A stretch of DNA of 38,412 nt from Verrucomicrobiota bacterium (GTDB lineage Bacteria > Verrucomicrobiota > Verrucomicrobiia > Chthoniobacterales > UBA10450), in assembly GCA_003218885.1 (NCBI GenBank), contig QHOV01000141.1, forward strand, positions 1 to 38,412, in the 5' to 3' direction. Under the pieces are notes generated by a model. The model ran no database searches. It saw only the letters and a list, made by a program, of their open reading frames with translations, and was not told the origin of the DNA. Both the position numbers and the translations under genes were made by a program. This document shows positions 11,332 through 32,482 of this stretch, piece by piece. Numbering within the stretch: the stretch's first letter is position 1; each line of letters opens with the position of its first letter.

Positions 11332-11793
11332 TTATGCAGGCGATTTCTTAGCGGATCGTAGCCTGATGTTGATCTCGGAGGCGAGCGTGCGGTGGACGGG
11401 GCATTTGCCGGCAATCTCCGTCAGCTTCGCGTGCTGTTCGGAGGTCAAAGGGCCGGTGAGTTCGAGTTCAACATCGATTCTGTCCACCATGCCATCCTTG
11501 GTTTCGCATTCCTCGCAATCTCTTGCGTGAATACGCGAGTGCCAGAGCGAAACTGCGATGTTCTCGAGAGGAAATTGTTTCCGGCGCGCGTAAAGACCAA
11601 CGGTCATGGAAGTGCAAACGCCAAGGCTTGCCAGCAAATAATCGTAAGGATCGGGCCCGGCATCGCCGCCGCCTGCGCTCACCGGTTCGTCAGCGACAAG
11701 GCGATGCTTACCCGCAATGATTTCCTGTTTAAAGCTGTCGGCGCCGCCGCGCACGACGATTTTAGGCGTTTTATTATCGTTCTGTTCGGCCAT
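11332..11793 (-). CDS. OsmC family protein
   Basis: GGGDAGPDPYDYLLASLGVCTSMTVGLYARRK and GKCPVHRTL motifs; start trimmed to MAEQNDNK. Confidence 0.93.
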   Translation of the reverse strand: MAEQNDNKTPKIVVRGGADSFKQEIIAGKHRLVADEPVSAGGGDAGPDPYDYLLASLGVCTSMTVGLYARRKQFPLENIAVSLWHSRIHARDCEECETKDGMVDRIDVELELTGPLTSEQHAKLTEIAGKCPVHRTLASEINIRLRSAKKSPA

Positions 11794-11801
11794 AATCGGG
11801 A

Positions 11802-12176
11802 TCACGCGCGCAGGATACCTGCGAACGCGTCGCGGTATCGCCACACGAGAAACAATTCGAGAACGGTGACAACGATTGCTGGCGCCAGTCCCTCGGGCGC
11901 CAGCAAAATGTGGAATAGCCAAATGTTTACTATGATTGCGCCCAGAATCGTCAGGCCCAGCGGGACAAAGCGGCCGATCAACAAAAGCAAGCCGCCGATG
12001 ACCTGGAGCGCGCCGATTACGTAAATGTGACCACTGGCAACAAACGCATGCAAATATTCACCGGCCAGACCTTGCGGCGGTGGAGGCATCGGGATGAAAT
12101 GCAGGAACGCGTTCGAACCGAAGACAACGAAGATTAGTCCGAGCAGAACGCGGGCAATAATGGTAGCGATTTTCAT
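11802..12176 (-). CDS. DoxX family membrane protein
   Basis: MKIATIIARVLLGLIFVVFGSNAFLHF..., four hydrophobic segments, IGGLLLLIGRFVPLGL. Confidence 0.85.
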   Translation of the reverse strand: MKIATIIARVLLGLIFVVFGSNAFLHFIPMPPPPQGLAGEYLHAFVASGHIYVIGALQVIGGLLLLIGRFVPLGLTILGAIIVNIWLFHILLAPEGLAPAIVVTVLELFLVWRYRDAFAGILRA

Positions 12177-12248
12177 TCGCGCACAGTGGCCTGATTGGCT
12201 AGAAATTCCAATCCCAATCTTGCTGGAGCAGACTGCGGACGAGAGCAA

Positions 12249-13091
12249 TCATGATTTTCGCCTAAACAGTTCGTTCAAATCGGCGGAAGGAGCGTTATTG
12301 GCCAGAAGGTTGAATGTGCCGTTTGTTTTCATGTCTTGCGCGGCGCGGAGGAATGCGCCCCACGCAGCGAGGGCAAGACCGGAGCCGACGGAGATGCGGC
12401 GCACACCGAGATCAGCTAGTTGGGAAAATGAAAGCTGATGATTGAATCCGGAGACGAGAACGTTGACAGGTCTCGGCGCGACTGTCTTTACGATTTGTGC
12501 AATGTCATCCGGATTCCTAACACCCGGCGCGTAGAGGCAATCGGCGCCGGCTTCGGCGTAGGCATTGAGTCGGTCGAGAGCGGTGTGCAATGGATTGGGA
12601 TCCCCGATGAGCCACGCTTCGCAACGGCCCGTTAGCACGACGTCAGTTTTCGAAGCGTCAATCGCAGCGCGTGCCGCGCGAATCCGTTCGACTGCGAGAT
12701 TTCTCTCATAGAGCGGCGCATCGGCGTGTCCCGTACTGTCTTCGATCGACAGACCAGCAATTCCTGTTGCGAGACAAAGACGCACGTTTTCCGCGACGTC
12801 TTCGGGTTCGTCGGCGTAGCCAGCTTGGAAGTCTGCGTTCACCGGCAATGCGGTAGCTGCCACAATTTCGCGGATGTGCGCGAGCATTTCGTCACGCGGA
12901 ACCGCACCATCAGGTTTCCCGCGTGAAAAAGCGAAGCCTGCCGAGGTCGTAGCTAGCGCTTTGAATCCAAGGCGCTCCAAGTAGATCGCTGTTCCGATAT
13001 CCCAGGGGTTTGGAAGCACGAAGCATCCGGACTCGTGCATCGCGCGAAATTGTGCAGCTTCTGAGGCATTCTGAATTGATGTCATCGCCAA
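12249..13091 (-). CDS. Isocitrate lyase/phosphoenolpyruvate mutase family protein
   Basis: FVLPNPWDIGTAIYLERLGFKALATTSAGFAFSRG, NADFQAGYA, SIEDSTG, GRCEAWL. Confidence 0.95.
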   Translation of the reverse strand: MAMTSIQNASEAAQFRAMHESGCFVLPNPWDIGTAIYLERLGFKALATTSAGFAFSRGKPDGAVPRDEMLAHIREIVAATALPVNADFQAGYADEPEDVAENVRLCLATGIAGLSIEDSTGHADAPLYERNLAVERIRAARAAIDASKTDVVLTGRCEAWLIGDPNPLHTALDRLNAYAEAGADCLYAPGVRNPDDIAQIVKTVAPRPVNVLVSGFNHQLSFSQLADLGVRRISVGSGLALAAWGAFLRAAQDMKTNGTFNLLANNAPSADLNELFRRKS

Positions 13092-13349: not shown

Positions 13350-13822
13350 CTATTTTGGTCTCTCTCGCGCGGCTTTCCAAATCTGTCGCAGCGGACCTTG
13401 AGCGCCGTAGATCGGATCATTGTCTGGAATTGGCAGAGCCGCGATTCTCTGATCGGCTTTGGGCCGCTCGCTGGGCAAACCCCGAAGCAAATCCCATTCG
13501 CGTCCATCCGGGTACGCCCCGACAACGCCAAAGTCGTCGCGGGCGCCAATGTTCTGGTGCGCCACAAATAAACTCCAAGCACCTCGTGCGTCGTGCTGTG
13601 GTAATGCGTAAAGGGATAAACACCGTTTCGCCACGAGTTGGTCCAGTTGTTCTCGGCAAAGGATTGTTCAATAACGGATGCGCCATCTTCCGCTTCCGTT
13701 GAGAATGCCTGCCGATACAATAGCAAAGGCAGGTCGCTATTTGGGAAAACGCCGTCGTCTTTAAATTTGAACTGTTCGGGTTCAACCAATTCCTGCTGTT
13801 TAACGGTGGGATGGGCTTGCAT
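13350..13822 (-). pseudogene. Cupin-domain protein (COG4297/YjlB-like) disrupted by internal deletion plus frameshift
   Basis: One frame gives FKFKDDGVFPNSDLPLLLYRQAF...NNWTNSWRNGVYPFTHYHSTTHEVLGVYLW; a second frame gives VAHQNIGARDDFGVVGAYPDGREWDLLRG...PDNDPIYGAQGPLRQIWKA. Confidence 0.8.
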
Positions 13823-13933
13823 ATGTAATGCAATATCGAACCGGTCGTGTTGGTCAAATATTCTCATCAGCCAGGTCGCGTATTGCCTTTCCGAATATCG
13901 AGCGTATGGCAACGCAATACCGCTGAAGCTGCC

Positions 13934-15202
13934 ATGCAAGAACCAACAGGCGTGTCTCAATTGGTCGAGCATCTCTTCCGTCATGAGGCGGGAAAAATGG
14001 TGGCGACGCTGACTCGAATTTTCGGGATCGAGCGCTGGAACCTGGCGGAAGATGTGGTGCAGGAAGCGCTCTCGCGCGCGTTGCAGACATGGCCATATCG
14101 CGGGATTCCAGAAAATCCATCCGCCTGGATCATGCGCGCGTCGCGCAATCTCGCGCTCGATGTGATCCGGCGTGAAAAGAGTTTCCGCGCAAAAGAAGCC
14201 GAGATCGCGCGCTTGATCGAGCTCGACGGATCTGCATCCGACGCCGCAATTTTTTCCGAACACGAAATCGCCGACGATCGATTGCGGATGATGTTCGTGT
14301 GCTGTCATCCAGTCATTCCGCGGGAGGCGCAGGTGGCACTGGCATTGAAAACACTCTGCGGCTTCAGCGTGGCGGAAATCAGTCATGCATTCCTGACGAC
14401 CGAAGTGGCGATTGCCAAGCGATTGACGCGCGCGAAACAAAAAATCCAGGAAGCGCAGGTTCCATTCGAGATTCCTGTCGGCGATGAGTTGACGCGGCGG
14501 CTCGATAGCGTTCTGCAATCGCTCTACCTGCTCTTCAACGAAGGTTACAAAGCCTCCACCGGCGAAAACCTCATCCGCGAAGAACTCTGTCAGGAAGCAA
14601 TCCGCCTCACGGAATTACTGGCACAACGTCGCGCCGGGAATAAGCCCAAGACGCATGCCTTGCTCGCATTGATGCTGTTGAATGCCGCGCGGATTCCCAC
14701 TCGGCAAGATGACGAGGGTAACCTGCTTCGACTTGAAGAACAGGATAGGACACGCTGGGATCAGGCGATGATCGCGCGCGGTATGTCTCACCTGCACCAG
14801 TCCGCTGCAGGTGAGGCGCTCAGCGAATATCATCTTCAAGCGGGTATCGCTGCCTGTCACGCAACGGCAACTAATTATTCAGAGACGGATTGGTCCAAGA
14901 TTCTTTCGTTATACGATCGATTGAGAGAGTTGGATGATTCGCCTGTGGTCGCGCTTAATCGCGCAGTAGCCGTCGCAAATGTTAGCGGTCCGAAAGCAGG
15001 ATTGGAAGCAGTGCGCGCCATACGTGAGCGCGAAAGATTAGGTTCGTATTACTTATTGTATTCAGTGATCGGCGAGCTCGAGATGAGGTTGAACAACCGT
15101 GAAACCGCTGCGCAAGAGTTCCGCAAGGCGTTTGAACTGGCCGAGACGAAATCGGAGCGAGCTTTTCTTTTAAAACGATTGCAGCGCTGCCTGGACAGCT
15201 AG
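13934..15202 (+). CDS. ECF-type RNA polymerase sigma factor, ECF42-like (DUF6596/TPR-type C-terminal extension)
   Basis: VVQEALSRALQTWPYRGIPENPSAWIMRASRNLALDVIRREK; FEIPVGDELTRRLDSVLQSLYLLFNEGYKAS; PVVALNRAVAVANVSGPKAGLEAV. Confidence 0.93.
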   Translation: MQEPTGVSQLVEHLFRHEAGKMVATLTRIFGIERWNLAEDVVQEALSRALQTWPYRGIPENPSAWIMRASRNLALDVIRREKSFRAKEAEIARLIELDGSASDAAIFSEHEIADDRLRMMFVCCHPVIPREAQVALALKTLCGFSVAEISHAFLTTEVAIAKRLTRAKQKIQEAQVPFEIPVGDELTRRLDSVLQSLYLLFNEGYKASTGENLIREELCQEAIRLTELLAQRRAGNKPKTHALLALMLLNAARIPTRQDDEGNLLRLEEQDRTRWDQAMIARGMSHLHQSAAGEALSEYHLQAGIAACHATATNYSETDWSKILSLYDRLRELDDSPVVALNRAVAVANVSGPKAGLEAVRAIRERERLGSYYLLYSVIGELEMRLNNRETAAQEFRKAFELAETKSERAFLLKRLQRCLDS

Positions 15203-15223
15203 CCTAGTCAATCAGAAAAATTC

Positions 15224-15253
15224 TGTCCTAAGTCGGCGCGCTCGTTCGTCGTA
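15224..15253 (+). promoter_or_regulatory. Candidate ECF sigma promoter: TGTCC-N18-CGTCGTA
   Basis: TGTCCTAAgtcggcgcgctcgttCGTCGTA, 43 nt upstream of the VOC gene; near-identical element at 15689. Confidence 0.7.
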
Positions 15254-15296
15254 TCTCTGACAGAACTAAAAATCACACATCAACAGAAAGGCAAAT

Positions 15297-15686
15297 ATGA
15301 GCAAGTCAGAGAAGAAACACGCAGCAAGCATCGTTTGGTTTGAAATCCCGGCGGACAACCCGGAACGCGCCAAGGCGTTTTATGGCAATTTGTTTGGCTG
15401 GAAGATCAATCCATTTCCCGGCGGAGGCGACTACTGGCATATCGACACCGGCGGCGCAGATGACACTCCGGATGGTGCACTGAAGAGGCGTCAGCGTCCG
15501 CAAGAACCAATCATCAACTACGTCAGCGTGGATTCGGTAGATAAGTACGCCGATAAAACCGCGAAACTTGGCGGCAAAATCTGCATGGCGAAAACGGCCG
15601 TGCCGCAGATGGGCTACTTCGCCATTTGCCAGGATACTGAGGGCAACGCGTTCGGGATTTGGGAGAGCGACGAAAATGCAAAATAA
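15297..15686 (+). CDS. VOC family (glyoxalase/bleomycin resistance-like) protein
   Basis: IVWFEIPADNPERAKAFYGNLFGWKI...GYFAICQDTEGNAFGIWE. Confidence 0.93.
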   Translation: MSKSEKKHAASIVWFEIPADNPERAKAFYGNLFGWKINPFPGGGDYWHIDTGGADDTPDGALKRRQRPQEPIINYVSVDSVDKYADKTAKLGGKICMAKTAVPQMGYFAICQDTEGNAFGIWESDENAK

Positions 15687-15688
15687 TT

Positions 15689-15718
15689 TGTCCTAAACTC
15701 GCCCGCTTGTTCGTCGTA
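15689..15718 (+). promoter_or_regulatory. Candidate ECF sigma promoter: TGTCC-N18-CGTCGTA (second copy)
   Basis: TGTCCTAAactcgcccgcttgttCGTCGTA, 52 nt upstream of the DGPF/YciI gene; same 18-nt spacing as 15224. Confidence 0.7.
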
Positions 15719-15770
15719 GTTTTGAAAGCGAGAAAAACAATCAACCATCAACGATCAACTAAAGACTAAT

Positions 15771-16172
15771 ATGAACACACAAAATCAAAATGGATACATG
15801 CTGCTGTTTCGCGGAAATGACTGGCACAAAAGTCTTTCGCCGGAAGAAACACAGAAAGTGACGGATCAATGGATGGCCTGGTTCCGCCGGCTGACCGAAC
15901 AAGGCAAAGCCATCGCCGGCAACCCGCTTGAACGCGAAGGCAAAATCGTCTCGGGCAAAAACCGTGTTGTGTCGGATGGTCCATTCGCAGAATCAAAGGA
16001 AGCGATCGCCGGCTACTTTCTGCTCGACGTCGCCAGTCTCGATGAAGCGGTGGCGATCGCGCAGGAATGCCCAGGCTTGCCGTACGGCGTACGCATCGAG
16101 GTCAGGCCCGTCGCGGGCGAATGTCCGCTGGCGAGCGAGCTCAAGCGCGAAGCGGAGTTTGCCACCGTCTGA
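15771..16172 (+). CDS. YciI/DGPF-domain (YCII-related) protein
   Basis: YMLLFRGNDW...VVSDGPFAESKEAIAGYFLLDVASLDEAVAIAQECPG. Confidence 0.93.
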   Translation: MNTQNQNGYMLLFRGNDWHKSLSPEETQKVTDQWMAWFRRLTEQGKAIAGNPLEREGKIVSGKNRVVSDGPFAESKEAIAGYFLLDVASLDEAVAIAQECPGLPYGVRIEVRPVAGECPLASELKREAEFATV

Positions 16173-16259
16173 GTAAAGCGGAGATCCCGTCACCTGCCGT
16201 GGATAAATTCGCCCTTAAAAGGCAAGCGAAGTCATTCACCAAATCAGAAAGGATCAAAT

Positions 16260-16631
16260 ATGCCACGCGTTGTTCACTTCGAAATTTACACGGAGAATCC
16301 TGAAGTCGTCCGCCCGTTCTACGAGGACGTTTTCGGCTGGAAGTTCCAAAAGTTTGGTGGCCCGCTTGATTACTGGCTTATCACGACCGGTGACGACAAG
16401 CAGCCGGGGATCAACGGCGGCCTCGCCCAGCCTCGGGAAGGCCAGAGTCCCGGCACGTTGAACACAATTGGGGTTTCATCGCTTGATCAATCGGTAAAAA
16501 AGATTGAGCAAGCTGGTGGCCGAATCTGCGTGCCAAGGATGGCAATCCCTGAAGTCGGCTGGCTCGCTTACGCAGAGGATCCGGCCGGTAACGTGTTCGG
16601 AATCATAGAGCCGGATACAAACGCAAAATAA
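16260..16631 (+). CDS. VOC family (glyoxalase-like) protein, paralogue of 15297..15686
   Basis: VVHFEIYTENPEVVRPFYEDVFGWKFQKF...WLAYAEDPAGNVFGIIEPDTNAK. Confidence 0.93.
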   Translation: MPRVVHFEIYTENPEVVRPFYEDVFGWKFQKFGGPLDYWLITTGDDKQPGINGGLAQPREGQSPGTLNTIGVSSLDQSVKKIEQAGGRICVPRMAIPEVGWLAYAEDPAGNVFGIIEPDTNAK

Positions 16632-16681
16632 TCGGACGACCACGTCAGCAACACACGACCACAACGAAAGGAGAAGAAGTC

Positions 16682-17128
16682 ATGTCAGTAAACACCATCC
16701 GACTACACCGAGTGCTCCGAGCAATGCCGGAGAAAATTTACCGCGCGTTTCTGGACCCCGACGCAATGGGCAAATGGCTACCGCCAAACGGATTCACCTG
16801 CAAGGTTCATCAGATGGACGCGAAAGTTGGCGGCAACTACAGAATGTCGTTCACGAATTTTACGACTGGCAAGAGCCATTCCTTCGGCGGAACCTATGTC
16901 GAACTGACACCGCACAAACGCATTCGCTACACCGACAAATTTGACGATCCAAATTTGCCCGGCGAAATGCAGACGACGATCACGCTGAAAAAAGTTTCGT
17001 GCGGAACGGAACTAAACGTCGTGCAGGAAGGCGTACCCGCGGTCATTCCTGCTGAAGCGTGTTATCTCGGCTGGCAGGAATCGCTGACGCTATTGGCGAA
17101 ACTCGTCGAAGCGGAGATTCCAGATTAA
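16682..17128 (+). CDS. SRPBCC family protein (AHSA1/START-like)
   Basis: RVLRAMPEKIYRAFLDPDAMGKWLPPNGFTC...GGTYVELTPHKRIRYTDKFD. Confidence 0.92.
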   Translation: MSVNTIRLHRVLRAMPEKIYRAFLDPDAMGKWLPPNGFTCKVHQMDAKVGGNYRMSFTNFTTGKSHSFGGTYVELTPHKRIRYTDKFDDPNLPGEMQTTITLKKVSCGTELNVVQEGVPAVIPAEACYLGWQESLTLLAKLVEAEIPD

Positions 17129-17134
17129 GCGCGG

Positions 17135-17233
17135 CACGCAAAGGATTCCGAAAAGTCCGAGCGAGTCACTGAAGCGATGCTTAAAATGAAGAAGATCGAC
17201 ATCAAAACCTTGAAGGAGGCCTATAAGAGCTGA
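17135..17233 (+). pseudogene. 3' remnant of a PhnB/3-demethylubiquinone methyltransferase-like VOC gene (…AKDSEKSERVTEAMLKMKKIDIKTLKEAYKS*)
   Basis: In-frame 32-codon translation matching the remembered C-terminal pattern xxSxRVxxAMLxMxKIDIxxLxxAY; no N-terminal part present. Confidence 0.65.
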
Positions 17234-17328: not shown

Positions 17329-18429
17329 ATGAGCAAAATAAGAGTCTTAGTTGGCACAAGGAAGGGCGCGTTCATTCTCACGTCGGATGGCGCGCGTAAA
17401 CGATGGAAGGTGAGGGGACCGCATTTTGCGGGCTGGGAGATTTATCACATGAAAGATTCGCCTGTTGACCCGGATCGAATCTACGCCTCGCAAACCAGCG
17501 GTTGGTTTGGGCAGATCATTCAGCGCTCGGACGACGCCGGCAAAACCTGGAAGACACCCGGCAGCAGTCCGGAAGAACTGAAAAGTCCGGACGGCATGAC
17601 CAAAGGGGAAAGCAACAAGTTCGTCTACGACACTTCGCCTGAAACAGGGAAACCGCTGACGACGCACCAATGGTACGATGGCACACAGCATCCTTGGGAA
17701 TTCAAGCGCGTCTGGCATTTGGAACCGTCGCTCCACGATTCCGATCACGTTTATGCAGGCGTGGAAGATGCCGCGTTGTTCGAATCAAAGGACGGCGGGA
17801 AATCGTGGCATGAACTCGCGGGGCTGCGCGGCAGCGATACCGGTCCGAAATGGCAGCCGGGGGCAGGCGGAATGTGTTTGCACACGATTCTCCTCGATCC
17901 CGGTAATCCGAATCGAATTTCCATCGCGATATCCGCTGCCGGCACGTTTCGTACAGATGACGGCGGCAAAACCTGGAAACCAATTAATTACGGCCTGCAT
18001 TCACAATTTCTTCCGGATCCTACAGCGGAAGTTGGCCATTGCGTGCACCGGATCGCGTTCCATCCGTCGCGCCCGAACACGTTGTTCATGCAAAAACATT
18101 GGGACGTGATGCGCAGCGACAACGCGGGTGATTCGTGGCAGGAGGTCAGCGGAAATTTGCCAACCGATTTCGGATTTCCGATCGACGTGCACGCGCACGA
18201 GCCGGAAACGATTTACGTCGTGCCGATCAAGAGCGACTCCGAACATTATCCACCGGATGGAAACGTGCTGCGCGACGCGATGTCAGTCGATTCGCTCGAG
18301 CCGTGCGGCATTTACTTCGGAACAACAGGCGGCCAGGTTTATGCATCGGCCGATGCAGGCGACAATTGGAAGCCGATTGTGCGCGATCTCCCAGCCGTTT
18401 TGTCCGTTGAAGTCCAAACGCTGCGTTGA
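17329..18429 (+). CDS. BNR/WD40/YVTN-like beta-propeller (sialidase-fold 'exo-alpha-sialidase' annotated) protein
   Basis: Repeated Sx[22 protein letters not shown] Asp-box motifs. Confidence 0.9.
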
Positions 18430-18440
18430 AGAGTACGCAT

Positions 18441-19220
18441 ATGAGGAACTCGCGAATTGCGACGTTCTTTCTCATCGCGTACGGGATCAGCTGGACAGCT
18501 TGGATCATACTTTTCGCACAACGCTTCTCTCCTCTCATGGGGCCTGGACGCTGGTTGTATTTGACGGCTGTGCTCGCACCACACGGGGCGGCGCTCATAA
18601 GCACAACGGTGGAAGGTGGACGCGCTGGAGTGCGAGCATTTTACAGCCGGGTCATGCGGCCATTACCATTTCGATCGGCAATTGTCACGATCTGCGTGCC
18701 ACCCATTATGTATCTGATGCGTGATGCAATTTTCGTCGTTCTCCGTTTGTCCCATGGCGCATTCTTTCACAGCCCACCACGAACTGTGACGGCGCTCGTA
18801 TTCGGGCAGCTAGCAGTGGTTTTAGGTGAGGAACCGGGATGGCGTGGTTTCGCGCTTCCGCGACTGATCGCACGCTTTGGGCCAATCATAGGAACGCTCA
18901 TCCTGGGCATCGCGTGGGCGCTTTGGCATCTTCCCCTCTTCGTGATCGTGGGAACGCCACAGCATGGGACTAGCTTTCTAGCTTTTGCTCTCCTGCTGAT
19001 GGCGTGGTCAATGGTGATCACACTAATCATGATGCAGGCCCGGGGCAGCGTAATTTCGGCGATGCTCTTCCACGCATCCGTCAACTTGTGTGCATTCACG
19101 ATGTGGGAGCCCGATACGCAGCTATTCGCGCTGGGTCCGTGGATCGTAACAGCTGGTATCGCCGCCTGGCTGATAGAGTCGAAGTTGAGCCGCGGGTCTT
19201 TGACCGGTGGCACGCCTTGA
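18441..19220 (+). CDS. CPBP family intramembrane metalloprotease (Abi-like)
   Basis: Multi-TM; EEPGWRGFALPRL motif; LGIAWALWHLPLF motif. Confidence 0.92.
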   Translation: MRNSRIATFFLIAYGISWTAWIILFAQRFSPLMGPGRWLYLTAVLAPHGAALISTTVEGGRAGVRAFYSRVMRPLPFRSAIVTICVPPIMYLMRDAIFVVLRLSHGAFFHSPPRTVTALVFGQLAVVLGEEPGWRGFALPRLIARFGPIIGTLILGIAWALWHLPLFVIVGTPQHGTSFLAFALLLMAWSMVITLIMMQARGSVISAMLFHASVNLCAFTMWEPDTQLFALGPWIVTAGIAAWLIESKLSRGSLTGGTP

Positions 19221-19234
19221 GCCATTTATGAGAC

Positions 19235-19540
19235 ATGGTTAATGTGATCCGCATTGTTCTCCCGCCCCATCTGCGCACGCTCGCGCATGTCGACGGCGAA
19301 ACGGAACTCGAGATTAAGACTCCTGTGACTCAGCGTTCGGTGCTCGACGCACTCGAAGCGAAATATCCGATGCTGCGCGGAACGATACGTGATCACGTCA
19401 CGCTACTGCGGCGGCCAATGGTTCGATTTTTTGCTTGTGGCGAGGATTTGTCGCACGATTCACCAGACACTCCATTGCCGGACGCGATTGCCAGCGGCTC
19501 CGAACCGTTTCTCATCATTGGAGCCATAGCTGGCGGTTAA
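19235..19540 (+). CDS. MoaD/ThiS-like beta-grasp protein with C-terminal GG
   Basis: Small ubiquitin-like-sized protein ending ...[10 protein letters not shown]. Confidence 0.8.
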
Positions 19541-32175: not shown

Positions 32176-32211
32176 GGAGCGGTCCTCGGATTCGAAATGC
32201 GGAAATCAAAG

Positions 32212-32285
32212 TGGGCCTGACTGGGCTCGAACCAGTGACCCTGCGCTTATCAAGCGCATGCTCTAACCAACTGAGCTACAGGCCC
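32212..32285 (-). tRNA. tRNA-Ile (anticodon GAT), CCA not encoded
   Basis: Reverse complement GGGCCTGTAGCTCAGTTGGTTAGAGCATGCGCTTGATAAGCGCAGGGTCACTGGTTCGAGCCCAGTCAGGCCCA folds as cloverleaf. Confidence 0.95.
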
Positions 32286-32289
32286 GGGT

Positions 32290-32312
32290 CGGCGGCAGAG
32301 CCGCCGGTTTTT
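32290..32312 (+). terminator. Candidate rho-independent terminator: CGGCGGC-AGA-GCCGCCG-GTTTTT
   Basis: Perfect 7-bp stem, 3-nt loop, T5 tract; plus strand, downstream of MBOAT and antisense to the tRNA transcript. Confidence 0.55.
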
Positions 32313-32409
32313 AGATTTACGATTGTCGATTTTCGAGTTGGAAGGAGTCGCGCGCAAGCGTCGATTTTCAAAAATCTGAAATCGGCAATCTGAAATCGGA
32401 AATTTCAAG
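32313..32409. repeat. Heptad-like array (GATTTACGATTGTCGATTTTCGA ... AATCTGAAATCGGCAATCTGAAATCGGAAATTT) between the two tRNAs
   Basis: Degenerate units in opposite orientation on either side of the spacer. Confidence 0.7.
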
Positions 32410-32482
32410 TGGAGGCAAGGGGATTCGAACCCCTGACTTCCAGCTTGCAAAGCTGGCGCTCTACCAACTGAGCTATGCCCCC
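32410..32482 (-). tRNA. tRNA-Ala (anticodon TGC), CCA not encoded
   Basis: Reverse complement GGGGGCATAGCTCAGTTGGTAGAGCGCCAGCTTTGCAAGCTGGAAGTCAGGGGTTCGAATCCCCTTGCCTCCA. Confidence 0.95.

Follow-up and report, generated by a model that had tools for sequence, protein, structure and literature searches.

An ECF42 sigma factor with two putative promoters and a probable local regulon in a Verrucomicrobiota bacterium

Introduction

What does an ECF42 sigma factor control, and what sets its activity, when no anti-sigma gene is found among its neighbours? The question is raised by a gene in a draft genome of a soil bacterium of the Verrucomicrobiota (2.3 Mb, 82% complete), from which one stretch of 38,412 nucleotides, here called the window, was analysed. 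An earlier note had described a sigma factor followed on the same strand by VOC, DGPF (YciI), VOC and SRPBCC genes at 13934–17233. All five are indeed present on the + strand with the domains claimed, each with a significant Pfam match, that of the second VOC protein being the weaker one (Glyoxalase, E = 6e-5, above its cut-off). The start at 13934 also fits the Met-Gln-Glu start of relatives, but the interval ends on the stop codon of a VOC gene relic, the SRPBCC gene itself ending at 17128. Two promoter sites within the interval had been overlooked, as had further genes, up to 19540, that probably belong to the set. It is these putative promoters, P1 and P2, and the probable regulon of this ECF42 system that are identified as new here.

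Results and discussion

The features of the locus are as follows.

13934–15202, + strand: ECF42 sigma factor, 422 aa, with sigma-2 (residues 16–82), sigma-4 (120–171), DUF6596 (189–291) and a TPR-like helical tail (about 298–421); Pfam, AlphaFold, profile match, tree
15224–15253, + strand: P1, putative ECF42-type promoter, TGTCCTAAGTCGGCGCGCTCGTTCGTCGTA; 46 nt from CGTC to the VOC1 start
15297–15686, + strand: VOC family protein 1 (VOC1); Pfam Ble-like_N and Glyoxalase; PDB relative Rv0577, 3oxh
15689–15718, + strand: P2, putative ECF42-type promoter, TGTCCTAAACTCGCCCGCTTGTTCGTCGTA; begins just past the VOC1 stop, 55 nt from CGTC to the YciI start
15771–16172, + strand: YciI/DGPF protein with an exact VVSDGPFAESKE motif, found in relatives too; Pfam YCII; PDB relative PA1349, 1s7i
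16260–16631, + strand: VOC family protein 2 (VOC2); Pfam Glyoxalase
16682–17128, + strand: SRPBCC/AHSA1 protein; Pfam AHSA1 (E = 9e-32); PDB relative 1z94 (E = 1.5e-62)
17135–17233, + strand: relic of a PhnB-like VOC gene (3-dmu-9_3-mt family, by Pfam), about the last 30 codons only; tblastn
17329–18429, + strand: BNR/Asp-box repeat protein; Pfam; probably in the regulon, judging from relatives
18426–19220, + strand: CPBP (Rce1-like) membrane protease; Pfam; 4-nt overlap with the BNR gene
19235–19540, + strand: ThiS/MoaD-like small protein with C-terminal Gly-Gly; weak Pfam ThiS match (E = 0.097)

The sigma factor

Pfam gives the domain order sigma-2, sigma-4, DUF6596 and TPR-like tail, with no sigma-3. 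At 24.2 bits the sigma-4 match falls slightly short of the Pfam threshold (25.7 bits), but it sits in the right place and is backed by profile matches to ECF structures. The C-terminal extension (residues 175–422) consists of DUF6596 and helix pairs according to Pfam and the AlphaFold model, in agreement with the approximately 200 residues of TPR-like helices that are a feature of ECF42. Built from 59 relatives, the model has high confidence (pLDDT 88, pTM 0.86). When it was submitted to Foldseek, TPR proteins topped the list, with no hit under E = 0.001; the sigma family profile aligns with a designed TPR protein over residues 312–404 (E = 2e-4). A SnoaL-like C-terminal domain, the ECF41 feature, had no Pfam match in the sigma factor, and the tail is nearly all-helical.

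A tree was built from the region spanning sigma-2 to sigma-4, using as outgroup nine other ECFs of the source genome and Sinorhizobium meliloti RpoE9 (ECF41). All DUF6596 sigma factors, the window's among them, form one clade (support 99/97) with the ten outgroup ECFs outside; the clade includes plasmid-borne sigma factors (Pseudomonas, Rhizobium, Streptomyces, Rhodococcus and others) that lie beside YciI genes, the experimentally studied ECF42 proteins being absent from the tree. The nearest sigma factor, from an uncultured Verrucomicrobium (L034), is 97% identical, and a Candidatus Udaeobacter genome (L063) carries an 82% relative. No match to an anti-sigma family was found by Pfam among the neighbouring proteins scanned, as the earlier note had anticipated. 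The window's sigma factor is the sole DUF6596 protein of the source draft genome, although a second ECF42 or further sites are possibly missing, since the draft is 82% complete. The testable ECF42 features (domain order, helical extension, YciI neighbour, no anti-sigma, DUF6596 grouping and promoter type) are all seen in the predicted protein and its surroundings. Domains, tree, neighbourhood and promoter type all speak for the ECF42 group named in the earlier note and for an origin in the Verrucomicrobia.

Where sigma-4 begins, the window's protein has the peptide FVCCHP (residues 121–126; 14294–14311), which is typical of the DUF6596 group and lacking in the ten other ECFs. Its cysteines were considered as a redox switch and rejected. 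Their invariance in one alignment (A1) was discounted because MMFVCCHP was among the peptides used to gather those loci, and in sequences gathered without MMFVCCHP either cysteine is replaceable; we therefore treat FVCCHP as a group signature only. We also note that the frame of a Streptomyces plasmid ECF42 sigma factor (L165:3929-5959) runs on into a SAM-like domain of the phage-integrase type, which may reflect a fusion or faulty annotation.

Promoters P1 and P2

P1 and P2 are nearly identical and both have the form TGTC-N19-CGTC. Here, as in many relatives, the −35 element of P2 follows the stop codon of VOC1 by 2–3 nt. Three versions of the pattern each found two sites in the source draft genome, both at this locus. 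A scan of the window allowing three mismatches gave 52 hits against 36 expected, and only P1 and P2 occur at 0 or 1 mismatch. Degenerate promoters before the sigma, VOC2, SRPBCC or BNR genes of the window were considered, none of them credible. The elements and their 19-nt spacing equal those of the RpoE10-linked sequences of S. meliloti (SMb20475, SMc01149 and SMc01151; PMC6180224, Table 1). We infer that the sigma factor uses P1 and P2, which likely mark the downstream genes as its targets.

The motif was surveyed in 80 loci gathered with the sigma protein. Sense matches to TGTC-N-CGTC peak sharply at spacer 19, with 59 matches (close relatives included, so not all independent) vs 1–15 at other spacers and 4 antisense. 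A smaller set, obtained by whole-protein search with the window left out, has the same spacer-19 peak (11 vs 0–4). Each of 20 related whole genomes has 1–3 matches to the extended motif, the reversed control giving 0. ECF42 loci from several phyla carry the motif; it is not universal among DUF6596 sigma factors, since 36 of the 80 loci, Aquimarina included, have no exact site near sigma, the contig ending in some of them. In one of seven plasmid-borne ECF42 loci (Mesorhizobium, L168), a TGTC-N19-CGTC site immediately precedes the VOC-YciI-sigma genes.

The site is followed in most cases by a YciI or VOC gene; BNR, SRPBCC, DUF899, DoxX, PhnB-like VOC and one ABC transporter ATPase gene are also found there. 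YciI lies within 2.5 kb of sigma in 57 of the 67 survey loci that have YciI or full flanks. ECF42-type sites were also seen on other contigs of related genomes (L147, L150, L151, L152, L156, L157), preceding VOC, AhpD-like (by eye), DUF899, DoxX, ABC transporter ATPase and SRPBCC genes; these are either distant regulon members or effects of contig breaks.

Two layouts

The loci fall into two arrangements. Most Udaeobacter-like loci (L034, L035, L037, L038, L039, L041, L063 and L067 among them) start with sigma, followed by P1-VOC1 and P2-YciI; there, as in the window, sigma has no ECF42 site before it. A second group (L045, L049, L050, L052, L056, L065 and L068) has the site before YciI and sigma after it, an order shared by Acidobacteriota (L100, L110) and most motif-bearing Bacteroidota (L070–L091). 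With a site upstream of YciI and sigma, the sigma factor of those loci would activate itself. In the window both promoters are 3′ of the sigma gene and none is before it; the gene is thus probably expressed independently. The window's Udaeobacter-like clade probably lacks sigma self-activation, which would make this an unusual, apparently non-self-activating layout of a known type of system.

Extent of the regulon

In tblastn the relic at 17135–17233 matches longer copies of the gene in related clusters, with identities of up to 77% and E-values as low as 1e-13. As it directly adjoins the SRPBCC stop, most of this PhnB-like VOC gene has been deleted. When SMb20475, an RpoE10 target gene of S. 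meliloti, was read, its product proved to belong to the same PhnB-like VOC family as the relic.

Beyond the SRPBCC gene, the BNR, CPBP and ThiS-like genes continue on the same strand, with no ECF42 site of their own in the window. BNR and ThiS-like genes recur near sigma in relatives. The ECF42 motif stands directly before BNR at two loci (45 nt in L051, 96 nt in L153), with a weaker case in L060. Given these promoters directly before BNR, the regulon probably reaches 19540, so that the BNR-CPBP-ThiS block would probably belong to it; read-through from SRPBCC to BNR over 200 nt is assumed. The CPBP gene adjoins BNR also in L148, and 17 of 17 relatives of the ThiS-like protein end in GAxAGG. 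We note that the BNR-repeat and ThiS-like Gly-Gly genes are a recurrent pair in Verrucomicrobiota, split here by the CPBP protease gene (17329–19540). Our more tentative suggestion, which we hold to be somewhat doubtful, is that the ECF42 regulon in Verrucomicrobiota took in the BNR-repeat protein and the ThiS-like Gly-Gly carrier, adding a sulfur-transfer or conjugation step to the response, and that the Udaeobacter clade lost the usual sigma self-activation to leave an open-loop circuit.

Next to the sigma gene, the other strand carries PEP mutase-like, DoxX and OsmC genes (11332–13091, − strand), with no ECF42 site before them in the window; of the relatives read, about nine or ten also have PEP mutase- and DoxX-like genes. 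A cupin gene (13350–14035, − strand), intact in L034 (254 aa), has lost about 85 nt of the cupin core and carries a frame shift; it is probably a pseudogene, an assembly error also being possible. Further away is a tRNA-Ile and tRNA-Ala pair (32211–32482, − strand), an arrangement frequent in rRNA operons.

Comparison with known systems

RpoE10 of S. meliloti, an ECF42 sigma factor, likewise has a YciI neighbour, a long TPR tail and TGTC-N19-CGTC promoters (PMC6180224), and its targets likewise encode glyoxalase-like and hydrophobic-ligand-binding proteins. On RpoE10 overexpression SMb20475 and SMc01149 rose, whereas SMc01151 did not (PMC6180224). YciI precedes sigma in that system; in the window it follows sigma and has a putative promoter of its own, and the likely outputs adjoin sigma, followed by the BNR-CPBP-ThiS block. 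Sven_0747, Sven_4377 and Sven_7131 of Streptomyces venezuelae and ECF-10 of Pseudomonas putida, all ECF42, share the group, the TPR extension and a YciI-type neighbour, the likeness being drawn from their description in PMC8999054. ECF41 (SigJ, RpoE9) and ECF56 (SigG1) are likewise ECF sigma factors with a C-terminal regulatory extension; theirs is SnoaL-like, in contrast to the DUF6596/TPR extension of the window's protein, and RpoE9 falls outside the DUF6596 clade.

Proposed mechanism

We assign a probability of about 0.85 to the reading that this is an ECF42 sigma factor with a local regulon, in which sigma, set by its TPR-like extension and probably a protein partner, drives P1 and P2. The leading candidate for that partner is YciI. 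Sigma would guide RNA polymerase to P1 (VOC1) and to P2 (YciI-VOC2-SRPBCC), and the P2 transcript would probably run on into BNR-CPBP-ThiS. The products may serve a small-scale response in the cytoplasm to small molecules that are reactive or toxic; the regulon content (VOC, SRPBCC, YciI, DUF899, DoxX), judged by family names, suggests the handling of such compounds. Published work finds the ECF42 extension essential for activity, with its proximal part contacting sigma-4, and expects a protein partner, perhaps YciI (PMC8999054, PMC9023288). Our data agree with this view; sensing by the TPR tail, which the earlier note favoured, and sensing by YciI are both candidate roles. Sigma-YciI fusions were sought as support for direct interaction, and none was present in the loci read.

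The extension might instead bind a small-molecule signal itself, with no protein partner and with YciI a mere output enzyme. Such an arrangement would suit a large, well conserved and confidently folded extension and the position of YciI under P2, where an output would sit. We nevertheless think it unlikely, if worth keeping in mind: the TPR-like fold is usually of a protein-binding type, and where enough sequence is available YciI usually neighbours sigma, on one side or the other.

More improbable still is a constitutively active sigma factor controlled solely through the amount made. A conserved extension, essential according to published work, would be hard to explain in that case, even though no anti-sigma gene was found among the neighbours scanned, overexpression alone raised RpoE10 targets in S. 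meliloti, and the absence of an ECF42 site before sigma in the Udaeobacter-like clade means that outside input could set its level. That the TGTC-N19-CGTC pair is a set of repeat copies from local duplication and not promoters is hardly credible, for while the resemblance between the two copies extends over 57 nt (70%) and VOC1 is related to VOC2, different species share mainly the −35 and −10 elements and the distance between them, orientation is fixed, start codons mostly follow 30–55 nt after the site, and VOC2 lacks the element.

Conclusions

The system described here offers a readable promoter code for the widespread, little understood ECF42 group in Verrucomicrobiota, Bacteroidota and Acidobacteriota. 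With it, the ECF42 regulons of uncultured soil bacteria could be listed from sequence. The two layouts, which differ in whether sigma belongs to its own promoter unit, together with the recurrent YciI, would allow a direct test of the effect of YciI on sigma. Candidatus Udaeobacter is a dominant soil bacterium reported to be multidrug resistant (PMC7343977), and its only detected ECF42 is a sensible candidate for a stress-response regulator.
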